Shown: positions 43,216 to 51,833, counted from the first letter of the stretch. The stretch: DNA of 64,000 bases from a bacterium (GCA_003577245.1 QEVS01000001.1:62001-126000), one strand, 5' to 3'. The notes: generated from the sequence alone by a model not told the origin. Translations and numbers: made by a program.

Positions 43216-44691
43216 CTATTCGGCAAGCGTCCCCGCGTAGATGCCCTCGTAAGAGCGTGTAGCGATTTCGCACGCCGTCATCAAGTCTCGTGGGGCCAGA
43301 GGATGGGCCGCTCGCTGTCGCCACCGCTCCACACGCTCAAGTGCCGCTTGCCCCTGCGCTTCCTTCGTTGCGTCTTCGGGCAGGTCCAATCGTCCCGCGG
43401 CCGGCCTCCCCGAAACCAGGCGCCGGATCTCCACCACCTCATCCTCGCTCAGCCCCGCCGCGCCGGTGAGGGCAAGATGCAGAAGCCTCAGCTCGGCCAG
43501 CTCATGTGCCGATGCCTCCACCATCTCGATCGATGTTCGGATTGATCGGGCCGCGCCCGGGCTGGTTTCCTCCGCTGACCGCGCCGCCGAACGGAGCTGG
43601 AGCAGCGCCGAGCGCGCCTTCAAGTGCCCTGCCCGCGAGGCAAAGTACTCGTCAATGAGCGCCTGCAGTCGCGCGATCCCCGAGACCTGGATCAGTGCTC
43701 GTGCCAGCGCGACCGCCGTCTCGCCCCGTCGCTCCGAGATCTCCTGGAGGGCGAAGCGCACGCCGAACAACCCGAGCCGGCGCAGCAGAATTTCGCGCAC
43801 CTCACCCGTCAGGGGGCCCAGCTCCGCCTGGCGGAAGCGATCGACGGAAAGCAGCAACGCCGGCAACTCCGCCTTGTCCATCTCCGCCAGCTGCCGCAGC
43901 CAGGCAACCTCCGACTCGCGCAGCGTAGCGCCGGTTTCGGCCAGCAGCCCTGCCATCGGAATCACGTCGGCGACCGCGCCCCTCAGTTGAGGGTCGGCCG
44001 CGTACCGGTCCGCGATCCGCCGCGCGGCTTCCATGGCATCCGGCCGGGCAGCGCACACCTCGTCTGCCCGGGAAAGCACCGCCACCGCGTTGACCGGCGA
44101 GGCGGAAACCACCGACTGGTCGTACAGACTCTCCATCAGTTCGAGATCGGTCCGGTGCAGGTGGCGCATGAGAAAGACCACCGCGTCCGCTTCGGGTGCG
44201 AACCGCTCATCTTCGCCCCCCAGGAAGGAGGCGATGCGGACCCGGACCTCCTCGCTGGTCGACCCCATGCCGGGCGTGTCGATGATCGTCATTCTGGCCA
44301 GCGCACTCGATGGCCAGGCCACCTCCAGCCGATCGATCCCCCCGGGAGCCGCCTCAAGGCCGATTTCGAGCGTATCTTCCCCACGTCGGAAGGGCAGACT
44401 CACCCTTGCCCCTCCCGGCATCACGGCCTCCACTTCGTACGAAAGGCCGTGGCGGTAGTGGCAGACGTATCTCGTACATTCCCCCGCGTCGGTGGCCGCT
44501 ATCCGCTCCCCCAGGAGCGCATTCAGCAGCGTCGACTTGCCTGCCTTGATGCGCCCGACGATGGCTACCCGCAGCGGCTGGTGGAGCCCCTCCCGGATTC
44601 GCCGGATGTCATCCGCGATGATGTTGTCGCCCAGCTCGTCCATCGCCCGCGTACAGGCGGCATCGACCCGCCCGATCAGTGTCGGGGTCAC
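43216..44691 (-). CDS. Dynamin-like GTPase 1 (short, no clear membrane segment)
   Basis: This 491-residue bacterial dynamin-family protein has a P-loop GRIKAGKS at 46-53, a switch Thr region near GECTRYVCHY, and DTPGMGS as G3. SRAD occupies the base-recognition position, a departure from (N/T/S)KxD. The C-terminal half is helical with no obvious transmembrane hairpin. Its start overlaps the stop of GTPase 2 by 4 bases, so the two are made together and may form a hetero-oligomer that remodels membrane. The pairing recalls mycobacterial IniC/IniA and streptomycete DynA/DynB. Confidence 0.88.
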   Translation of the reverse strand: MTPTLIGRVDAACTRAMDELGDNIIADDIRRIREGLHQPLRVAIVGRIKAGKSTLLNALLGERIAATDAGECTRYVCHYRHGLSYEVEAVMPGGARVSLPFRRGEDTLEIGLEAAPGGIDRLEVAWPSSALARMTIIDTPGMGSTSEEVRVRIASFLGGEDERFAPEADAVVFLMRHLHRTDLELMESLYDQSVVSASPVNAVAVLSRADEVCAARPDAMEAARRIADRYAADPQLRGAVADVIPMAGLLAETGATLRESEVAWLRQLAEMDKAELPALLLSVDRFRQAELGPLTGEVREILLRRLGLFGVRFALQEISERRGETAVALARALIQVSGIARLQALIDEYFASRAGHLKARSALLQLRSAARSAEETSPGAARSIRTSIEMVEASAHELAELRLLHLALTGAAGLSEDEVVEIRRLVSGRPAAGRLDLPEDATKEAQGQAALERVERWRQRAAHPLAPRDLMTACEIATRSYEGIYAGTLAE

Positions 44692-46532
44692 GGCCGTGCC
44701 CCGGCGCCCGAAAGCTCACTGCGGCGCCGCTGCAACGCTTCGAGGACGGAGCCTATCTGTGAGTCCTGCTCCTGCAGCTCCTTGATACGGGTATTGCGCG
44801 CGGTGTCGCTCTCCTTCGTTGCGCGCTCCATGGTGGCCACGGCCTCAGTGCAGGTGCGCATCCGCTCCGCAATGCGCTCCTGGTAGTGGTCCCGCAGCCG
44901 CCTGTTCTGCTCGCGCGATAGGTCACGCATCGCCTTGCTGACCTCGAACTCAGCCTCGTCCATGAATTGGCGAATCGCCGTCCGGGCCTCCTGGCGGCGC
45001 ACGGTCACCTGCCTCTTGCGCTCATCAAGTATCTGCTTGCCTCCGAACAATGCCGCCACTCCCAGCAACAGGCCCGTCGACAACACGATTCCCGCCAGTC
45101 CCGACATCATCCCGAGCAGGATCAGCCCGCCCTGCGCGCCGCGCAGCCCCGATAGGCCCATGCCCGCGCTCGACGCGATTGACTGCTTCGTGAGCGGCCG
45201 GGGCGCCCAGTACTTTGACAGGTCCAGCGCCTGCCGCGACCCGACGGCCGACCCAATCATCAAGTCCTCTTCCTCCAGCGAGGCAGTCACCCGCCGCGCG
45301 ACCTCATCGGCGCCTGCCTCCATGTCGCGCACCACTTCGCGAGCGCCGTCTGCTGCCTGCTCGCGCACGTAGGCCGTCAGGTCGGTCCACGTCGCCTTTG
45401 GGTCACCCTTCGCAAGCTGGTCGTCGACGTAACGCTGAAGGTCCCGCATCCGCCGGCGGAAACGGTGGTCCACGCGCGCCACCAGTTCCGCCAGGCCATC
45501 GTTCATGACCGTGGTCCACCTGGCGCTGCCCTGGCGCAACCGGTCGAGCCGCTCCTTCGCCTCGCGAAACGCCCGGAGCCTCTCCTCCGCCGTCTCCGGT
45601 GATTGGCGCGCCTCCAGCCCCGCTCGCGTAGCCACCTGCATCTCCCCAAGGCTGAGGATGGCCGCATCGATCACGCCCCCCACCGCGATGCTCATCGCCT
45701 GCTGTACCACGCTCCTGTCGAGGAACTCGATGAGCGCCGGGAAGTTGCTCTCTTCGTTCAGGCTCGCGTCCCCGGCCGACAGGGCCGCCTCCCGCAGCGC
45801 CGACGAGACGGGTACGACCTGGATGTCCAGTCCCGCTGCCTTCAGCAACCCCGTGTCGGCGGAAAGTATCTCGCGCCAGTGCGGGAACATGTCGATCTTC
45901 GAAAGCGCTACCACCACTGCCGGCGCCACGCTCGCCGCGCTCCTGAGAAACGCCAGCTCTTCATGCGTGAGCGGTGAGGAAGCGTCGGAAACGAATATCG
46001 CCCCGTGAACCGCCTGCAGGTAGCCAAGGACGATCGACGTATAGCCCGGACGAATCCCGTTCGCGCCCGGCGAGTCGACAAGCGTCACGCCCCTCTGCAG
46101 GAGCGGATTCGGAAGAAAGACCTCCACCAGCTCCAGCCGGCTTCCCCTTGCCTCGGCCTGTTCCGTCACCAGCCGGGGCAGCTCCTCCAGGCCGTGTTCC
46201 TGCCTCGTTCTCTCGGCGCCTTCGACTCGCCACGCCACCACCCGCGGTTCCGCGGCGTAGCGAAGAACCGTCAGCGTCGAGGTGGCGATGTCATCGTCGA
46301 CCGGGCAGATGCTCGCCCCAAGGAGTGCGTTGACCAGTGAGCTCTTGCCCTGCTTGAACTCCCCCACAACCGCGATGGTCGCGTCGGGGTTGTCCAGCCG
46401 CACCTTTGCCAGGGCAATCCGCCGTGCCAGGTCGTCCCGGCCCATTGCCGCGGCCGCGGAGGCCGCCAGCTCCGCGTAGTTCGTCGCTTCCCTGAGCGCC
46501 GTTGCAACCTCGCTGCCTTCCGGGATCTCCAT
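44688..46532 (-). CDS. Dynamin-like GTPase 2 with membrane hairpin
   Basis: This 614-residue protein has a P-loop GEFKQGKS at 57-64, G3 DSPGANG and G4 SKID. Two hydrophobic stretches lie at about 465-500 (GLILLGMMSGLAGIVLSTGL, then LGVAALFGG), followed by a long coiled-coil-like C-terminus rich in Arg, Glu and Gln (500-605). This is the layout of membrane-inserting bacterial dynamins. It is the first gene of the pair and is divergent from the Hsp70-like gene, 82 bases between starts. The shared control region suggests joint regulation. Confidence 0.9.
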   Translation of the reverse strand: MEIPEGSEVATALREATNYAELAASAAAAMGRDDLARRIALAKVRLDNPDATIAVVGEFKQGKSSLVNALLGASICPVDDDIATSTLTVLRYAAEPRVVAWRVEGAERTRQEHGLEELPRLVTEQAEARGSRLELVEVFLPNPLLQRGVTLVDSPGANGIRPGYTSIVLGYLQAVHGAIFVSDASSPLTHEELAFLRSAASVAPAVVVALSKIDMFPHWREILSADTGLLKAAGLDIQVVPVSSALREAALSAGDASLNEESNFPALIEFLDRSVVQQAMSIAVGGVIDAAILSLGEMQVATRAGLEARQSPETAEERLRAFREAKERLDRLRQGSARWTTVMNDGLAELVARVDHRFRRRMRDLQRYVDDQLAKGDPKATWTDLTAYVREQAADGAREVVRDMEAGADEVARRVTASLEEEDLMIGSAVGSRQALDLSKYWAPRPLTKQSIASSAGMGLSGLRGAQGGLILLGMMSGLAGIVLSTGLLLGVAALFGGKQILDERKRQVTVRRQEARTAIRQFMDEAEFEVSKAMRDLSREQNRRLRDHYQERIAERMRTCTEAVATMERATKESDTARNTRIKELQEQDSQIGSVLEALQRRRSELSGAGARP

Positions 46533-46614
46533 AGGGGCACTGAGCGTAGCCGATCGCTTTACGATTTGTGAAGCGCGAAACGGTACAATCCGCGACCGGA
46601 GAGGAGACGGAATC

Positions 46615-48483
46615 GTGGGCTACGTCATCGGCGTCGATGTGGGCACCACCTACACCGCGGCAGCCGTCGATGCGAACGGGCGCCAGGAGATCTTCCAGCT
46701 CGGTTCGCACGCGGCGTCCATCCCTTCCGTCGTCCTCCTGCGCGCCGACGGCGAGGTGCTGACCGGCGAGGCCGCCGAACGGCGCGCCCAGACCGAGCCC
46801 GCTCGCACCGCCCGCGAATTCAAGCGCCGCCTCGGCGACCCGGTGCCTCTCCTGCTGGGGGGCACTCCCTATGGCGCCGAGGCCCTCTACGCCCACCTCC
46901 TGCGGAGCGTCGTCGACCAGGTGGTGACGCAACGCGGCGAGCCGCCCGCCCTGGTGGTCGTCACCCATCCCGCAAGCTACGGCCCCTACAAGCTCGACCT
47001 CCTGCGCCAGGCCGTGCGCCAGGCCGGGATCGAACAGGCCGTGCTCCTCAGTGAGCCCGAAGCCGCCGCGGTCCATTACGCCGACCAGGAACGCCTGGAG
47101 TCCGGGGCCGTCGTGGCCGTCTACGACTTCGGCGGCGGCACCTTCGATGCCGCCGTCCTGCGCAAGACCGCCGACGGATTCGAGCTCCTGGGCGAAGCCG
47201 AAGGGCTCGAAAGGCTCGGCGGCATCGACTTCGACCAGGCGGTGCTCGGCCTCGTCAACAGCGCCACCGGAGGGGCCCTTGAACAGCTCGACCCCGCCGA
47301 CCCCGCCGCCCGTGCCGCTGCCAACCGCCTCCGCGAAGAGTGCCGCCAGGCCAAGGAAGCGCTTTCCTCCGATACCGAAGGTGTCATCCCCGTGCTTCTC
47401 CCTTCGCGGCAAACTGAGGTCCGGCTCACCCGCGAAGAGTTCGAGGAGATGGTGCGGCCCCGCCTGCGCGAGACTACCGCTGCTCTTGAACGAGCCATCC
47501 GCAGCGCCGGCCTCAAGGTCGAAGAGGTCGACCGCGTCCTGCTCGTCGGTGGCAGCTCGCGGATCCCCCTGGTCGGAGCACTCGTGCGCGAGGCAACCGG
47601 GCGCCCCACCGCCATTGACGCCCACCCCAAGCACGCCATCGCCCTGGGCGCCGCCATCTTCGGGCGCGCTCACCTGGACAAGGGCCCGGCTGTTGCAGGG
47701 ACGCCCGCACCGGTCTCCGCCCCGGCCGTAACGGAGGTCCGGCCACCGGCCCTCCCGCCCGAACCTGTTCCCGCTCCCGCTCCCGCTACCGCCATGGCGT
47801 TCACGGGAGCAGCGTCCGGTCCTGTGCCCACGAGCCTCGGTGACCGGTTTGGCTTCGGTGCTCCCCCGCGCCGGCTCCTCCTCGCTCTCGGAGGTTTCGC
47901 GGTTGCCGTCGCCGTTGTCGCGGGCCTCGGTGCGCTCCTTCTTCGCGGTAACAATGGCGGCGGCCGCGAAGAGGACCGCGCCCTCGCCGCGGGCAGCTCC
48001 CCGGAAGCCACTGCCGCGGCCACGCTCTCACCGGTAGCGGCGGCCAGCGCCTCGCCCACGATCTCGCCCGGCGCCGCCACAGCAACTGCCACCTTGCCGG
48101 CGACCGCTCCGGCGTCCACGCCCAGCCCCACTGCCACCCAAACCCCTGCCCCCACCAACACCCCGCCGCCCACGGCGACCGCCACCGTGCAGCCAGCCTC
48201 GGCCGCCATCTCCGGCGTCACAACCTACGGCGATAGCTACCAGGCGGTCTTCACGGTCTCAGGCTTCTCGCCTGCGCTGGCGGGACGGCACCTGCACTTC
48301 TACTTCAACACCGCCCCGGCGTCCTCGGGGATGGAATACGCCGGGGCCAGCCCGTTCACCGGCTACAAGACCGCCGACCGGCCCCAGGGCGCCCAACAGC
48401 TTTGCGTTGTGGTGGTCAACGCCGACCATTCGGTCCTTGCCGGGAGCGGCAATTGCGCCAGCCTGCCCGGCTCCGGCTACTGA
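46615..48483 (+). CDS. Membrane-anchored Hsp70-type ATPase domain protein
   Basis: This 622-residue protein has a DnaK-type nucleotide-binding domain at residues 1-352: GVDVGTTYTA at 6-15, VYDFGGGTFD at 169-178 and LLVGGSSRIPLV at 309-320. There is no Hsp70 substrate-binding domain. A Pro/Ala linker leads to one transmembrane helix at about 420-443, then a Thr/Ala/Pro-rich stretch (455-545) and an extracellular domain of about 75 residues containing two cysteines. The ATPase should face the cytoplasm and the tail the outside. GGAGAGGAG precedes the GTG, and a TACAAT at 46584-46589 is a possible -10. It is divergent from the dynamin pair and convergent with the XRE regulator, their ends overlapping by 7 bases. 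Confidence 0.88.
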   Translation: MGYVIGVDVGTTYTAAAVDANGRQEIFQLGSHAASIPSVVLLRADGEVLTGEAAERRAQTEPARTAREFKRRLGDPVPLLLGGTPYGAEALYAHLLRSVVDQVVTQRGEPPALVVVTHPASYGPYKLDLLRQAVRQAGIEQAVLLSEPEAAAVHYADQERLESGAVVAVYDFGGGTFDAAVLRKTADGFELLGEAEGLERLGGIDFDQAVLGLVNSATGGALEQLDPADPAARAAANRLREECRQAKEALSSDTEGVIPVLLPSRQTEVRLTREEFEEMVRPRLRETTAALERAIRSAGLKVEEVDRVLLVGGSSRIPLVGALVREATGRPTAIDAHPKHAIALGAAIFGRAHLDKGPAVAGTPAPVSAPAVTEVRPPALPPEPVPAPAPATAMAFTGAASGPVPTSLGDRFGFGAPPRRLLLALGGFAVAVAVVAGLGALLLRGNNGGGREEDRALAAGSSPEATAAATLSPVAAASASPTISPGAATATATLPATAPASTPSPTATQTPAPTNTPPPTATATVQPASAAISGVTTYGDSYQAVFTVSGFSPALAGRHLHFYFNTAPASSGMEYAGASPFTGYKTADRPQGAQQLCVVVVNADHSVLAGSGNCASLPGSGY

Positions 48484-49325
48484 CCGGCACCTCCACCGGA
48501 AATGGCGCGTGTTCCACAACCGCGCACAAGTGTGTCCAACCGGGACCAGGTCTCCGCGTCAGCCGGGATCCAGTCGTGAAAGGTCAGGCCGCCCGGCTCG
48601 TCCGCCATCGCCACCGAGACCTTGAAGCGCATCTCGCCAGCCACGTTGTCCGACCAGACGGTTTCAAAGAACCAGCGGATCTTAGGAGTGCGCGCCGGCA
48701 CGCGGTCCCAGAGATCCAGCAGCCGTCGCACGTACCGCGGGTTCCCGTCGAACACCCGCTCCATGACCGCGGCGAAATACGCCGTTGCCGATTCCGGCAG
48801 CGGGACCGCCCCTCGATGATGCCCCTTCAGCACCCCGATCGCCACGGACGTCACCGCTTCCCAGTTCTTCACGTGGTCAGCAAATCGCGGGTTGGTGGCG
48901 AACGTCGCCAGGTTCCTTTCGACGGGGCTGGCAAACTCATGGTCGAGGTCGACCCCCCACAGGCGCTGGGCAGCCCGATTGGCCGCAACCACCTCCATCA
49001 TCTCGCTGGCCACACACGCCGGCCAGGGATGGCCCTCAATCAGGGAACGGGCCTCCTCCACCGTGTACATGTAGTCCGGGTTGTGCGGGCCCAGCTGCCC
49101 CCCGTCTGGTGCGAACCCGGCGCCCACCAGGATCTCGTTCCGCAGCCGCCTGTCCAGCTCAAGCACATCGAGGAGCGCCGAAAGGAGCGTTTGCGAAGGC
49201 CGCCGCAGACCCAGCTCGTACGCCTTCACGGTCTGGGCCGAAACGCCCGCTCCCGCCGCGAGCGCCGGCCGCGACATCCCGATGTCCGTTCGCGCCTTGC
49301 GCAGCAGGACCGCCCATTCGGACAT
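48477..49325 (-). CDS. XRE-family regulator with MmyB-like ligand-binding domain
   Basis: This 282-residue protein has an N-terminal helix-turn-helix with LLRKARTDIGMSRPALAAGA and GVSAQTVKAYELGLRRPS. An MmyB/MltR-type C-terminal domain (about 90-270) follows, with GHPWPACVASEMMEVVAANR, NLATFATNPRF and DNVAGEMRFKVSVAM. In actinobacteria such regulators often bind fatty acids and control neighbouring genes. GGAGGCGGCG precedes the ATG at 49325. Its target here is unknown; the convergent Hsp70 gene and the downstream and upstream neighbours are candidates. Confidence 0.88.
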   Translation of the reverse strand: MSEWAVLLRKARTDIGMSRPALAAGAGVSAQTVKAYELGLRRPSQTLLSALLDVLELDRRLRNEILVGAGFAPDGGQLGPHNPDYMYTVEEARSLIEGHPWPACVASEMMEVVAANRAAQRLWGVDLDHEFASPVERNLATFATNPRFADHVKNWEAVTSVAIGVLKGHHRGAVPLPESATAYFAAVMERVFDGNPRYVRRLLDLWDRVPARTPKIRWFFETVWSDNVAGEMRFKVSVAMADEPGGLTFHDWIPADAETWSRLDTLVRGCGTRAISGGGAGQ

Positions 49326-49471
49326 ACGCCGCCTCCGGCCAGGCCCCGCTTCCCGGGTCTGGTGGACACAAAGCGTAGCTGATTGGGCGGCCGTTCGTAA
49401 GTCGCGCAAGGACGCGAGACCAGCAAAGCTGTCCCGCGTTCCCCCGGGCCAGGCTGCGAAGCGCTCAGGCT

Positions 49472-51247
49472 TCAGTCGTCGTCGTCCTTGTCTTCCTCCT
49501 TGTCGTCGTCACTTGAGCTGTCGCTACTGCTCGAAGACCGCGGGAGCGTGTCCAGCGGCAGCGTCTCCGTGCCGAATTCCAGGTCCTCCGGCTCCCCACC
49601 AAGAGCCGGACCCGTGTACGCGCTCCCTTCAACCGGGTCCACGTCCGTGCCCGTGACGGGCGCGTGCATCGTGCCGCCAACCGCGGCGTCCGATCCCGTG
49701 GGCTGTCCAATGAGCCCCTGGTTGTTGTTGGCCGCGCCCGCGAGTGGGCCCAGCCCGGACGCGGTGTTGACGGCGTCGCTATCTGCCGGGTCGATATCGC
49801 CGCTCCCCGTCGGCCGTATGCCAAGGGCCGCCCGCAGCGATGCCCTGAAGGCCATCTGCGCCGGCGTCGGCATCCCGCCGTCAGGGTCCGGCATCCCAAC
49901 GCCGGGCTCGGTCGATTGGCCGTTCGGGTCGGGCTCGGTCGATTGGCCGTTCGGGTCGGGCTCGGTCGATTGGTCATCAGCAACGGGTGCCGTCGACTGG
50001 CCGGAGTTCTTGGCTGCTTCCCGCTCGGCCTGGGCTGCGACGCGGTTCCGCTCGGCGATGGCCGTTTTCATGGCATCGACATGCCGCGAGTCGGTGAGCC
50101 CTACGACAGCATCGACCACGGCGTCGCCTGCGCCTGTCGCATCATCGAGCTTTCTTGTCGCAAGATACGAACCGCCTCCAACCGCGACCACGCCGGCCAC
50201 CAATGGAGCCGATGCGACAGTTCCTGCTGCGAGCGCTGCTTCGGCCGCAGCTGCTCCTCCGGTTACGTAGCTCACAACCCCGGCAAACCCTGTCGCGGCG
50301 CCAACCACGTTGTCGAGCGTGTCCACCGCCGGATTCTTGGCCACGCTCGGGCTGCTCGCCTTCGACGTCGCGTCGCCCAGCAACCCCTCCATCAACCCCA
50401 GCTCGCTCTTCGCATCGTCCAGCCGCTGGCCGAACATCGACCCAACCGAACCCCGCCCGCTGGTGACCTGCCCCACCGCGTCGGCCGCGTGCTCCGCGCC
50501 CGGGTCGTCCGATTCCCTGGGGTCGTTGAACTTGCTTGCCTCGGCTGCCGCCGCGAGCTGCCCCTCGTGCCCGGTGCTCGAACCGGAAGAGGTCGCCGCT
50601 CCGGTCCTCGCGCCGAAGACGTCCAGGCCACCTTTTAGGTCCGGCCGCGCCGCATCGAGCTGCGAGAGCGCGGCCTCGGTGGCCGCATCCAGTTTGGCCG
50701 CGGCAGCTCCCAGGCCGAATTGATCCTTCCCGCCTTCCGAAGTTGCCCCCCCGGAGCCTCCGCTGGCTTCCGAACCCGCCTTCCCGCTTCCTGCCCCGCT
50801 GCCTGTGCTGGCCCCGGAGCTGGCCCCCGCCGAGCCGCTTCCGGTGCCCGAGCCCGCCGTCCCGCTGTCGTTCGACTGCTCACCCGGCATTCGCGGCGTC
50901 GTCAGCGTTCCCGTGTTCTCGTCCCCGCTGGCGCCGCCTTTCAGCTTCTCCTCCACCAGCCTGTTGCGAATCGTCTCGCTGGCCGATTCCACCTCGCTGG
51001 TCTTCGCGCTGGATACCGGTGTCTTCGTCTCGGCCGTCGTGGTCGACGTGGACTTGCCCGAGTTCAGGATGGCCGCACTTGCCTTCGGGTCGACCGCTCC
51101 CGCCTTCCCTGTGCCCGGTCCCTGGTGGGTGATGTTCGGCGTATCGTCGTCTTCGGCCGCCTTCTTCGCCGCCGCTTTCAGCTTGCTCGTATCTCGAACA
51201 GGTTTCGGCGAAACCTTCGAGAGCTGGGGAATGCGCTTCACTGCCAT
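49472..51247 (-). CDS. Unrecognised 591-residue Ser/Gly-rich protein with acidic tail
   Basis: I recognise no family. The N-terminus is basic (MAVKRIPQLSKVSPKPVRD). Residues about 120-200 are Ser/Gly/Thr-rich with GSGTGSGSAGASSGAS-type runs. A hydrophobic Ala/Val/Gly-rich stretch at about 330-390 (GFAGVVSYVTGGAAAAEAAL and VAGVVAVGGGSYLA) could be a membrane hairpin. A DPNGQSTEP repeat follows, and the tail is almost only Ser, Asp, Glu and Lys (DDDKEEDKDDDD). No secretion signal is clear. The ATG at 51247 is preceded by TATGGC at 6 bases and no good Shine-Dalgarno. Third-position G/C looks like the neighbours, so there is no sign of recent transfer. A surface, scaffold or secreted role is possible; IniB-like companions of dynamins are also low-complexity. 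Confidence 0.65.
   Translation of the reverse strand: MAVKRIPQLSKVSPKPVRDTSKLKAAAKKAAEDDDTPNITHQGPGTGKAGAVDPKASAAILNSGKSTSTTTAETKTPVSSAKTSEVESASETIRNRLVEEKLKGGASGDENTGTLTTPRMPGEQSNDSGTAGSGTGSGSAGASSGASTGSGAGSGKAGSEASGGSGGATSEGGKDQFGLGAAAAKLDAATEAALSQLDAARPDLKGGLDVFGARTGAATSSGSSTGHEGQLAAAAEASKFNDPRESDDPGAEHAADAVGQVTSGRGSVGSMFGQRLDDAKSELGLMEGLLGDATSKASSPSVAKNPAVDTLDNVVGAATGFAGVVSYVTGGAAAAEAALAAGTVASAPLVAGVVAVGGGSYLATRKLDDATGAGDAVVDAVVGLTDSRHVDAMKTAIAERNRVAAQAEREAAKNSGQSTAPVADDQSTEPDPNGQSTEPDPNGQSTEPGVGMPDPDGGMPTPAQMAFRASLRAALGIRPTGSGDIDPADSDAVNTASGLGPLAGAANNNQGLIGQPTGSDAAVGGTMHAPVTGTDVDPVEGSAYTGPALGGEPEDLEFGTETLPLDTLPRSSSSSDSSSDDDKEEDKDDDD
49904..49973. repeat. In-frame 27-base tandem repeat, 2.6 copies
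   Basis: The unit starting GGGCTCGGTCGATTGGCCGT is 27 bases long. It occurs exactly at 49904-49930 and 49931-49957, then 16 more bases match. On the minus strand it encodes repeats of DPNGQSTEP in the low-complexity protein. Identical copies imply recent slippage or unequal exchange. Confidence 0.9.
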
Positions 51248-51431
51248 GGCAATGCCATACCCTTCAAGTAAGGATTTGTTAGGCTGGTTGCCACCCACAC
51301 CGGAACGCAATGAACGAAGGGCTACACACGGTATCCGGCGCGCCTTGGCCATGCGCCTTTCCCGGCGCCACAAGACCCCGGGTCCCTTGATGGCGTACAG
51401 TGCCTCCGATTCATCGTCCCCGGGAGGCACC

Positions 51432-51833
51432 ATGAACAGGGAACTCATCAACGCGCCGGGCCTGGCTCAGCCGCGCGGCTACACCCACGCCGTCAGCGTC
51501 GAAGGCGCGCGCAAGCTCGTCTTCGTCTCCGGCCAGGTTGGTATCGACGAGCAGGGCGCCATCGTCGGCCCCGGCGACCTCAAGGCACAGGCCACGCAGG
51601 CGCTCCGCAACCTCGTCACCGCCCTCGCCGCCACCGGCGCCGCACCGGCCGATATCGTCAAGATGAACATCTACATCGTGAACTACACACAGTCCGACTA
51701 CCGCGCCTTCCGTGATGCGCGCACCGAGGTCCTCCCCCAGGGAGACCCTCCCGCCAGCACGCTCATCGGCGTCACGTCGCTCGCTGCCGAAGGGCTGATG
51801 ATCGAGATCGAGGCCGTGGCCGCGCTCGCCTGA
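51432..51833 (+). CDS. RidA/YjgF/L-PSP family protein lacking the catalytic arginine
   Basis: This 133-residue single-domain RidA-fold protein has FVSGQVGIDEQGAIVGPGDL, the conserved ADIVKMNIYIVNY and the end LMIEIEAVAAL. In canonical RidA the segment PARSCV places an Arg in the imine-binding site. Here the matching stretch reads PASTLIGV, with Ser instead, so 2-aminoacrylate deaminase activity is doubtful. It probably belongs to one of the Rid subfamilies without that residue. GGGAGG lies 4 bases before the ATG. It is transcribed divergently from the low-complexity protein. Confidence 0.9.
   Translation: MNRELINAPGLAQPRGYTHAVSVEGARKLVFVSGQVGIDEQGAIVGPGDLKAQATQALRNLVTALAATGAAPADIVKMNIYIVNYTQSDYRAFRDARTEVLPQGDPPASTLIGVTSLAAEGLMIEIEAVAALA

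Follow-up and report, generated by a model that had tools for sequence, protein, structure and literature searches.

The gene trio at 43216-48483 of the window (the whole 64,000-nucleotide stretch analysed) is best read, from its sequences, as the Chloroflexota form of the IniA/IniC membrane-remodelling system, accompanied by the third partner usual for it, a single-pass, receptor-like Hsp70-type ATPase. We regard the identity and conservation of this trio as close to certain. The window genome (2.16 Mb, 72% complete) has its nearest named relatives among Dehalococcoidia/Chloroflexota MAGs. ORF calling confirmed the three genes as real and their earlier positions as correct: an IniC-type short dynamin-like GTPase (43216-44691, minus strand; 491 aa; Pfam Dynamin_N, 9e-13), an IniA-type long dynamin-like GTPase (44688-46532, minus strand; 614 aa; Dynamin_N, 5e-26) and an Hsp70-type protein (46615-48483, plus strand; 622 aa; Pfam HSP70, 8e-56, ATPase domain only). 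The GTPase genes share a 4-nt overlap (GTGA), in keeping with the translational coupling proposed in the sequence-only reading. The Hsp70 gene is divergent from the iniA-like gene across an 82-bp control region (46533-46614) that is partly conserved in two relatives and gave no sigma-70-type promoter match. A GGAGAGGAG ribosome site precedes the Hsp70 start; the iniA-like start (46520-46545), unlike that of Hsp70, has no clear ribosome site, and its mRNA is possibly leaderless.

The long GTPase is, judged by alignment, a full-length homologue of mycobacterial IniA, residues 24-598 aligning to 12-590 of the Mycobacterium smegmatis protein (6j72; phmmer, 1e-86). Its G motifs read GEFKQGKS, DSPG and SKID, and IniA residues K46, K49/S50, T70, D141 and K200/D202 are kept as K60, K63/S64, T84, D153 and K212/D214; IniA R63 is not retained (P77). 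A hydrophobic, Gly-rich stretch (residues about 464-500), along with K499, aligns with the predicted transmembrane (TM) or lipid-interacting loop in M. smegmatis IniA. Of the hairpin earlier ascribed to this protein, the hydrophobic stretch thus stands and the hairpin is unproven; the term needs care because the match is to a predicted TM/lipid-interacting region. The short GTPase lacks hydrophobic segments, as had been anticipated, and carries G1 GRIKAGKS, G3 DTPG and a G4-like SRAD. A profile of its family matches the gene adjoining IniA in nearly all full-length IniA loci (L145 and L146 excepted), among them loci with an IniA closely resembling that of M. smegmatis, and on this basis we classify it as the IniC-type partner of IniA. 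M. smegmatis IniA has demonstrated GTPase activity, lipid binding and membrane fission, and the dynamin partners assemble into oligomers (PMC6715688). The link to mycobacterial IniBAC, originally drawn through similar partners, was correct and stronger than claimed, the pair being IniA/IniC itself. In one relative (G022), the IniA-like gene L021:7954-11003(+) is split across two frames, which reflects either a genuine interruption or a misassembly.

Cyanobacterial BDLP, Campylobacter jejuni DLP1/2 and LeoA/LeoBC are likewise paired dynamin-like GTPases, but their similarity falls far below that to IniA, and Hsp70 of the window type is absent from the distant dynamin loci, cyanobacterial ones included (L046-L058). 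An identity as phage-defence dynamins was rejected, the LeoA/LeoBC matches being weak only.

The Hsp70 runs, along the plus strand, from an ATPase (nucleotide-binding) domain (46615-47670; residues 1-352) through a Pro/Ala-rich, disordered and unconserved cytoplasmic linker (47671-47874; residues 353-420; pLDDT < 50), a single TM helix (47875-47931; residues 421-439; hydropathy 2.42) and a Thr/Pro/Ala-rich extracytoplasmic stalk of low pLDDT (47932-48198) to a small β-sandwich ectodomain of HVHFFFDT type (48199-48480; about 94-95 aa; conserved in 10 relatives). The helix assigned by hydropathy to 421-439 falls at 428-441 in the structural model and lies in the same place in relatives. The full-length model has a folded core, low confidence over 358-525 and a folded C-terminal domain; the latter (about 529-622) is conserved between species, the flanking linkers are not. 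This architecture agrees with the proposal that a TM helix and an outside domain have replaced the substrate-binding domain (SBD).

The closest PDB match is DnaK (6e-43), and comparison with canonical DnaK indicates that the window protein has a complete ATPase domain with its catalytic residues, which are retained in most TM-Hsp70 members. In contrast to DnaK and other Hsp70 chaperones, the interdomain linker and SBD are absent in 52/52 sequences aligned (the window and 51 relatives), TM helix, stalk and ectodomain standing in their stead. DnaK R151 is leucine in the window Hsp70, at a position not conserved among relatives. An ordinary DnaK was rejected as its identity on the lack of linker and SBD and because a canonical DnaK is separately present in the same genus (G001). 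Mycobacterial-type copies form a long branch in the Hsp70 tree and depart from the catalytic set (K70 to V, E171 to D, D8 to S by eye, D201 lost); they look like pseudo-ATPases, a suggestion tempered by an unsure register at the second phosphate loop.

Modelled alone, the ectodomain is predicted with confidence as a β-sandwich (AlphaFold pLDDT 91.6); Pfam and fold searches returned no significant match, with weak Ig/FN3-like structural similarities only. One distant protein (L176) matches the ectodomain weakly and DUF4399 weakly. The window-type ectodomain occurs on Hsp70s of Chloroflexota and of L038, L125 and L131; in other loci it is exchanged for GH99 (L030), an NHL propeller (L041) or BON (L126), and the L147 protein has WD40 repeats, with a weak TM segment and unsure topology. 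In many Hsp70s the outer part is a disordered tail only. A PknH-type ectodomain suspected in L108 was not confirmed by Pfam. The outer part varies between species, in contrast to the ATPase domain, which is inherited together with IniA.

The same ectodomain also terminates a TM Ser/Thr kinase from the window's family (L175:11020-12738(-), genome G007; 36% identity), whose gene adjoins one for a PP2C phosphatase; an IniA search of that genome gave no match. With Hanks-type TM Ser/Thr receptor kinases, the window Hsp70 has in common a cytoplasmic nucleotide-using domain, a linker, one TM helix and a swappable ectodomain; the difference is that an Hsp70 ATPase stands where the kinase domain would be. 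By sequence, the window protein thus has the features of a single-pass receptor: a cytoplasmic enzyme, one TM helix and an ectodomain that is exchanged among relatives and common to receptor kinases. The earlier idea that the tail reports on the outside gains support from this exchange and from the kinase; sensing as such we infer. Two Actinomycetospora TM-Hsp70 paralogues (L165:6721-9309(-), L166:6586-9042(-)) carry a lactonase-type propeller or DUF6777 as ectodomain, and no IniA gene was found within the stretch fetched around either.

Loci for comparison came from a profile scan of genome contigs with an IniA alignment, Hsp70 relatives being detected with a profile of the ATPase domain. The trio recurs across both Chloroflexota and Actinomycetota, also at mycobacterial ini loci; the sequence-only reading, which a neighbourhood confined to this genome would have undercut, survived this check and is supported in part. 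Relatives from the same family that have an IniA gene retain the trio on every contig of sufficient length. Of the Chloroflexota and Actinomycetota loci from the scan, 25 were compared and 22 have the Hsp70, the other three (L020, L028, L036) being on cut stretches. Across 396 evenly sampled Actinomycetota genomes, an SBD-less Hsp70 lies within about 9 kb in 20/23 full-length IniA loci fetched (L125-L147; lacking in L133, which has canonical DnaK only, L145 and L146), against 0/23 loci whose dynamin is diverged or of the GTPase-domain-only kind (L109-L114, L148-L164; Fisher 3e-10; 2e-7 when the mycobacterial-type loci count as one). Canonical dnaK genes near mycobacterial-type ini loci (L133, L138, L139, L143) were excluded from these counts.

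The reverse search agrees. At E <= 1e-70 this Hsp70 ATPase type is found in 9 of the 396 Actinomycetota genomes, and all nine belong to the 23 with full-length IniA (hypergeometric 1e-12); leaving out G433 (the centre genome) and G435, which came from loci already used, gives 7/7 (p = 4e-10). One of the nine (G812) has its high-scoring Hsp70 copies on a different contig from IniA. Among 400 Chloroflexota, the same threshold returned three matches (G000, G001, G090), each with IniA and IniC beside it, and the next-tier matches opened (L190-L196) are soluble Hsp70s with an SBD. The IniA tree and the Hsp70 tree broadly agree and share their main clades, with an evolutionary distance correlation of 0.61 (0.95 for IniA-IniC), and are compatible with an old transfer between the two phyla. 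Plasmid records held no relative at E <= 1e-60.

Beyond the trio lies an MmyB/MltR-type XRE regulator (48477-49409, minus strand; Pfam HTH_3 1e-8, MLTR_LBD 1.5e-9), convergent with the Hsp70 gene and overlapping its end. Homologues begin at residue 29, so its true start is probably near 49325. Such a gene also adjoins the cluster in L017, L018, L020 and L026, making it a candidate regulator; the solved MltR structure contained a fatty acid (PMC3406030), and the cluster may on that account be lipid-regulated. Upstream of it, a low-complexity 659-aa protein (49472-51451, minus strand) with QSTEPDPNG repeats, one hydrophobic stretch and no Pfam family match holds the same position in L017 and L026 and is a possible fourth component.

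We propose that the receptor-like Hsp70 provides the extracytoplasmic input to the IniA/IniC machine, a reading that rests on sequence comparison and to which we give a probability of about 0.5. The ectodomain would detect an envelope cue, either a ligand or damage, which would alter how the cytoplasmic ATPase domain clusters or which nucleotide state it is in; this domain would in turn recruit or release the GTPases at the inner membrane face, where IniA, aided by IniC, would remodel the membrane at the site. Ligand sensing, Hsp70-dynamin contact, the direction of signalling and an envelope-stress role in the window organism are parts that we infer. A receptor-like role is likely given the layout, the ectodomain exchange and the domain in common with a kinase, and its most probable target, given how strictly the Hsp70 partners IniA/IniC, is the dynamin pair, the main rival target being the neighbouring regulator. 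Since mycobacterial-type copies look catalytically degenerate, the ATPase cycle cannot be essential everywhere. The many tail-only outer parts count against dynamin gating, as does the occurrence of this Hsp70 type without dynamins nearby (L165, L166). Tentatively, and at less than even odds, TM-Hsp70s may constitute a class of transmembrane receptors with an Hsp70 ATPase in the kinase's place and interchangeable ectodomains, whose main output would be assembly of the dynamin pair on the inner membrane face; mycobacteria would use degenerate pseudo-ATPase scaffolds of this kind in ini signalling.

Gene order bears on the choice of target. In many Actinomycetia the Hsp70 gene lies directly beside an IniR-type (LuxR-type, STAND-like) regulator gene, on the same strand and a few nucleotides away (L128, L130, L134-L139, L141, L142, L144, L167), and is nearer to it than to the dynamins, which counts against dynamin gating. 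One published sentence records, without comment, that M. smegmatis iniR has a dnaK-like gene next to it (PMC5760070). These arrangements, and the convergent overlap of the MmyB-type gene with the Hsp70 end in the window, would suit a sensor arm of transcription control, in which the TM-Hsp70 retains the adjacent regulator (IniR-type LuxR/STAND or MmyB-type XRE) or activates it, and touches the dynamins only via expression. We consider this possible but doubtful: IniR is active when overexpressed from a plasmid (PMC5760070), and a profile search detected no IniR-type gene in Chloroflexota loci, L125 or L131, though the Hsp70 sits with IniA/IniC in all of them, which ties it to the dynamins rather than to the IniR-type regulator. 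It also forms overlapping, same-strand gene runs with the dynamins, for instance in L131 (IniA-IniC-Hsp70, 4-nt overlaps), L108 (IniC-Hsp70-IniA) and L147 (IniC-IniA-Hsp70). Beside this, four mycobacterial-type ini loci (L138, L139, L141, L142) have two Hsp70-like genes flanking the IniR-type gene, both with TM segments and disordered tails and with a common conserved juxtamembrane peptide of SATFRALAWSQDD type, which could be a docking motif.

Hsc70 acts in the disassembly of clathrin coats, and a membrane-fixed true chaperone or disassembly factor for dynamin oligomers could be imagined along these lines. The Hsp70 ATPase fold, the catalytic residues kept in most members and the oligomers formed by the partner proteins (PMC6715688) fit such an activity; we judge it improbable, since every one of the 52 sequences lacks SBD and interdomain linker, R151 varies, the mycobacterial-type copies look degenerate and a canonical DnaK is available in the same genus. 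It is hardly credible that the Hsp70 and the dynamins do unconnected work and owe their proximity to chance or shared mobility. The window Hsp70 gene does face the other way and has a ribosome site of its own, and distances and gene order differ between genomes, but we rejected a chance neighbourhood on the 20/23 versus 0/23 contrast, the 9/9 reverse test and the concordant trees.

The window locus resembles mycobacterial iniBAC in its full-length IniA homologue with an adjacent IniC-type partner, and mycobacterial-type loci also have an Hsp70-like gene, beside IniR (PMC5760070). It differs in that no IniR-type gene was found, with an MmyB-type regulator instead, and in an Hsp70 gene that is divergent from iniA and whose product, unlike the mycobacterial copies, has intact catalytic residues. 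Because no IniR-type regulator was found at the locus, we class it with IniA/IniC-type systems and do not call it an iniBAC operon.

Among promoters, that of iniBAC shows the strongest and most specific induction by first-line tuberculosis drugs acting on the cell wall (PMC5760070). The dynamins IniA and IniC are already known; the searchable literature yielded no description of an ectodomain-swapping TM-Hsp70 partner conserved throughout the system, and the single sentence in PMC5760070 was all that turned up there on Hsp70 with bacterial dynamin loci, most subscription journals being outside the search. Its conservation with the IniA/IniC pair across two phyla singles out the Hsp70 as a specific candidate for the missing input to ini envelope-stress signalling and, if this is true, the Hsp70 fold would here serve outside chaperone work, as the cytoplasmic part of a receptor.
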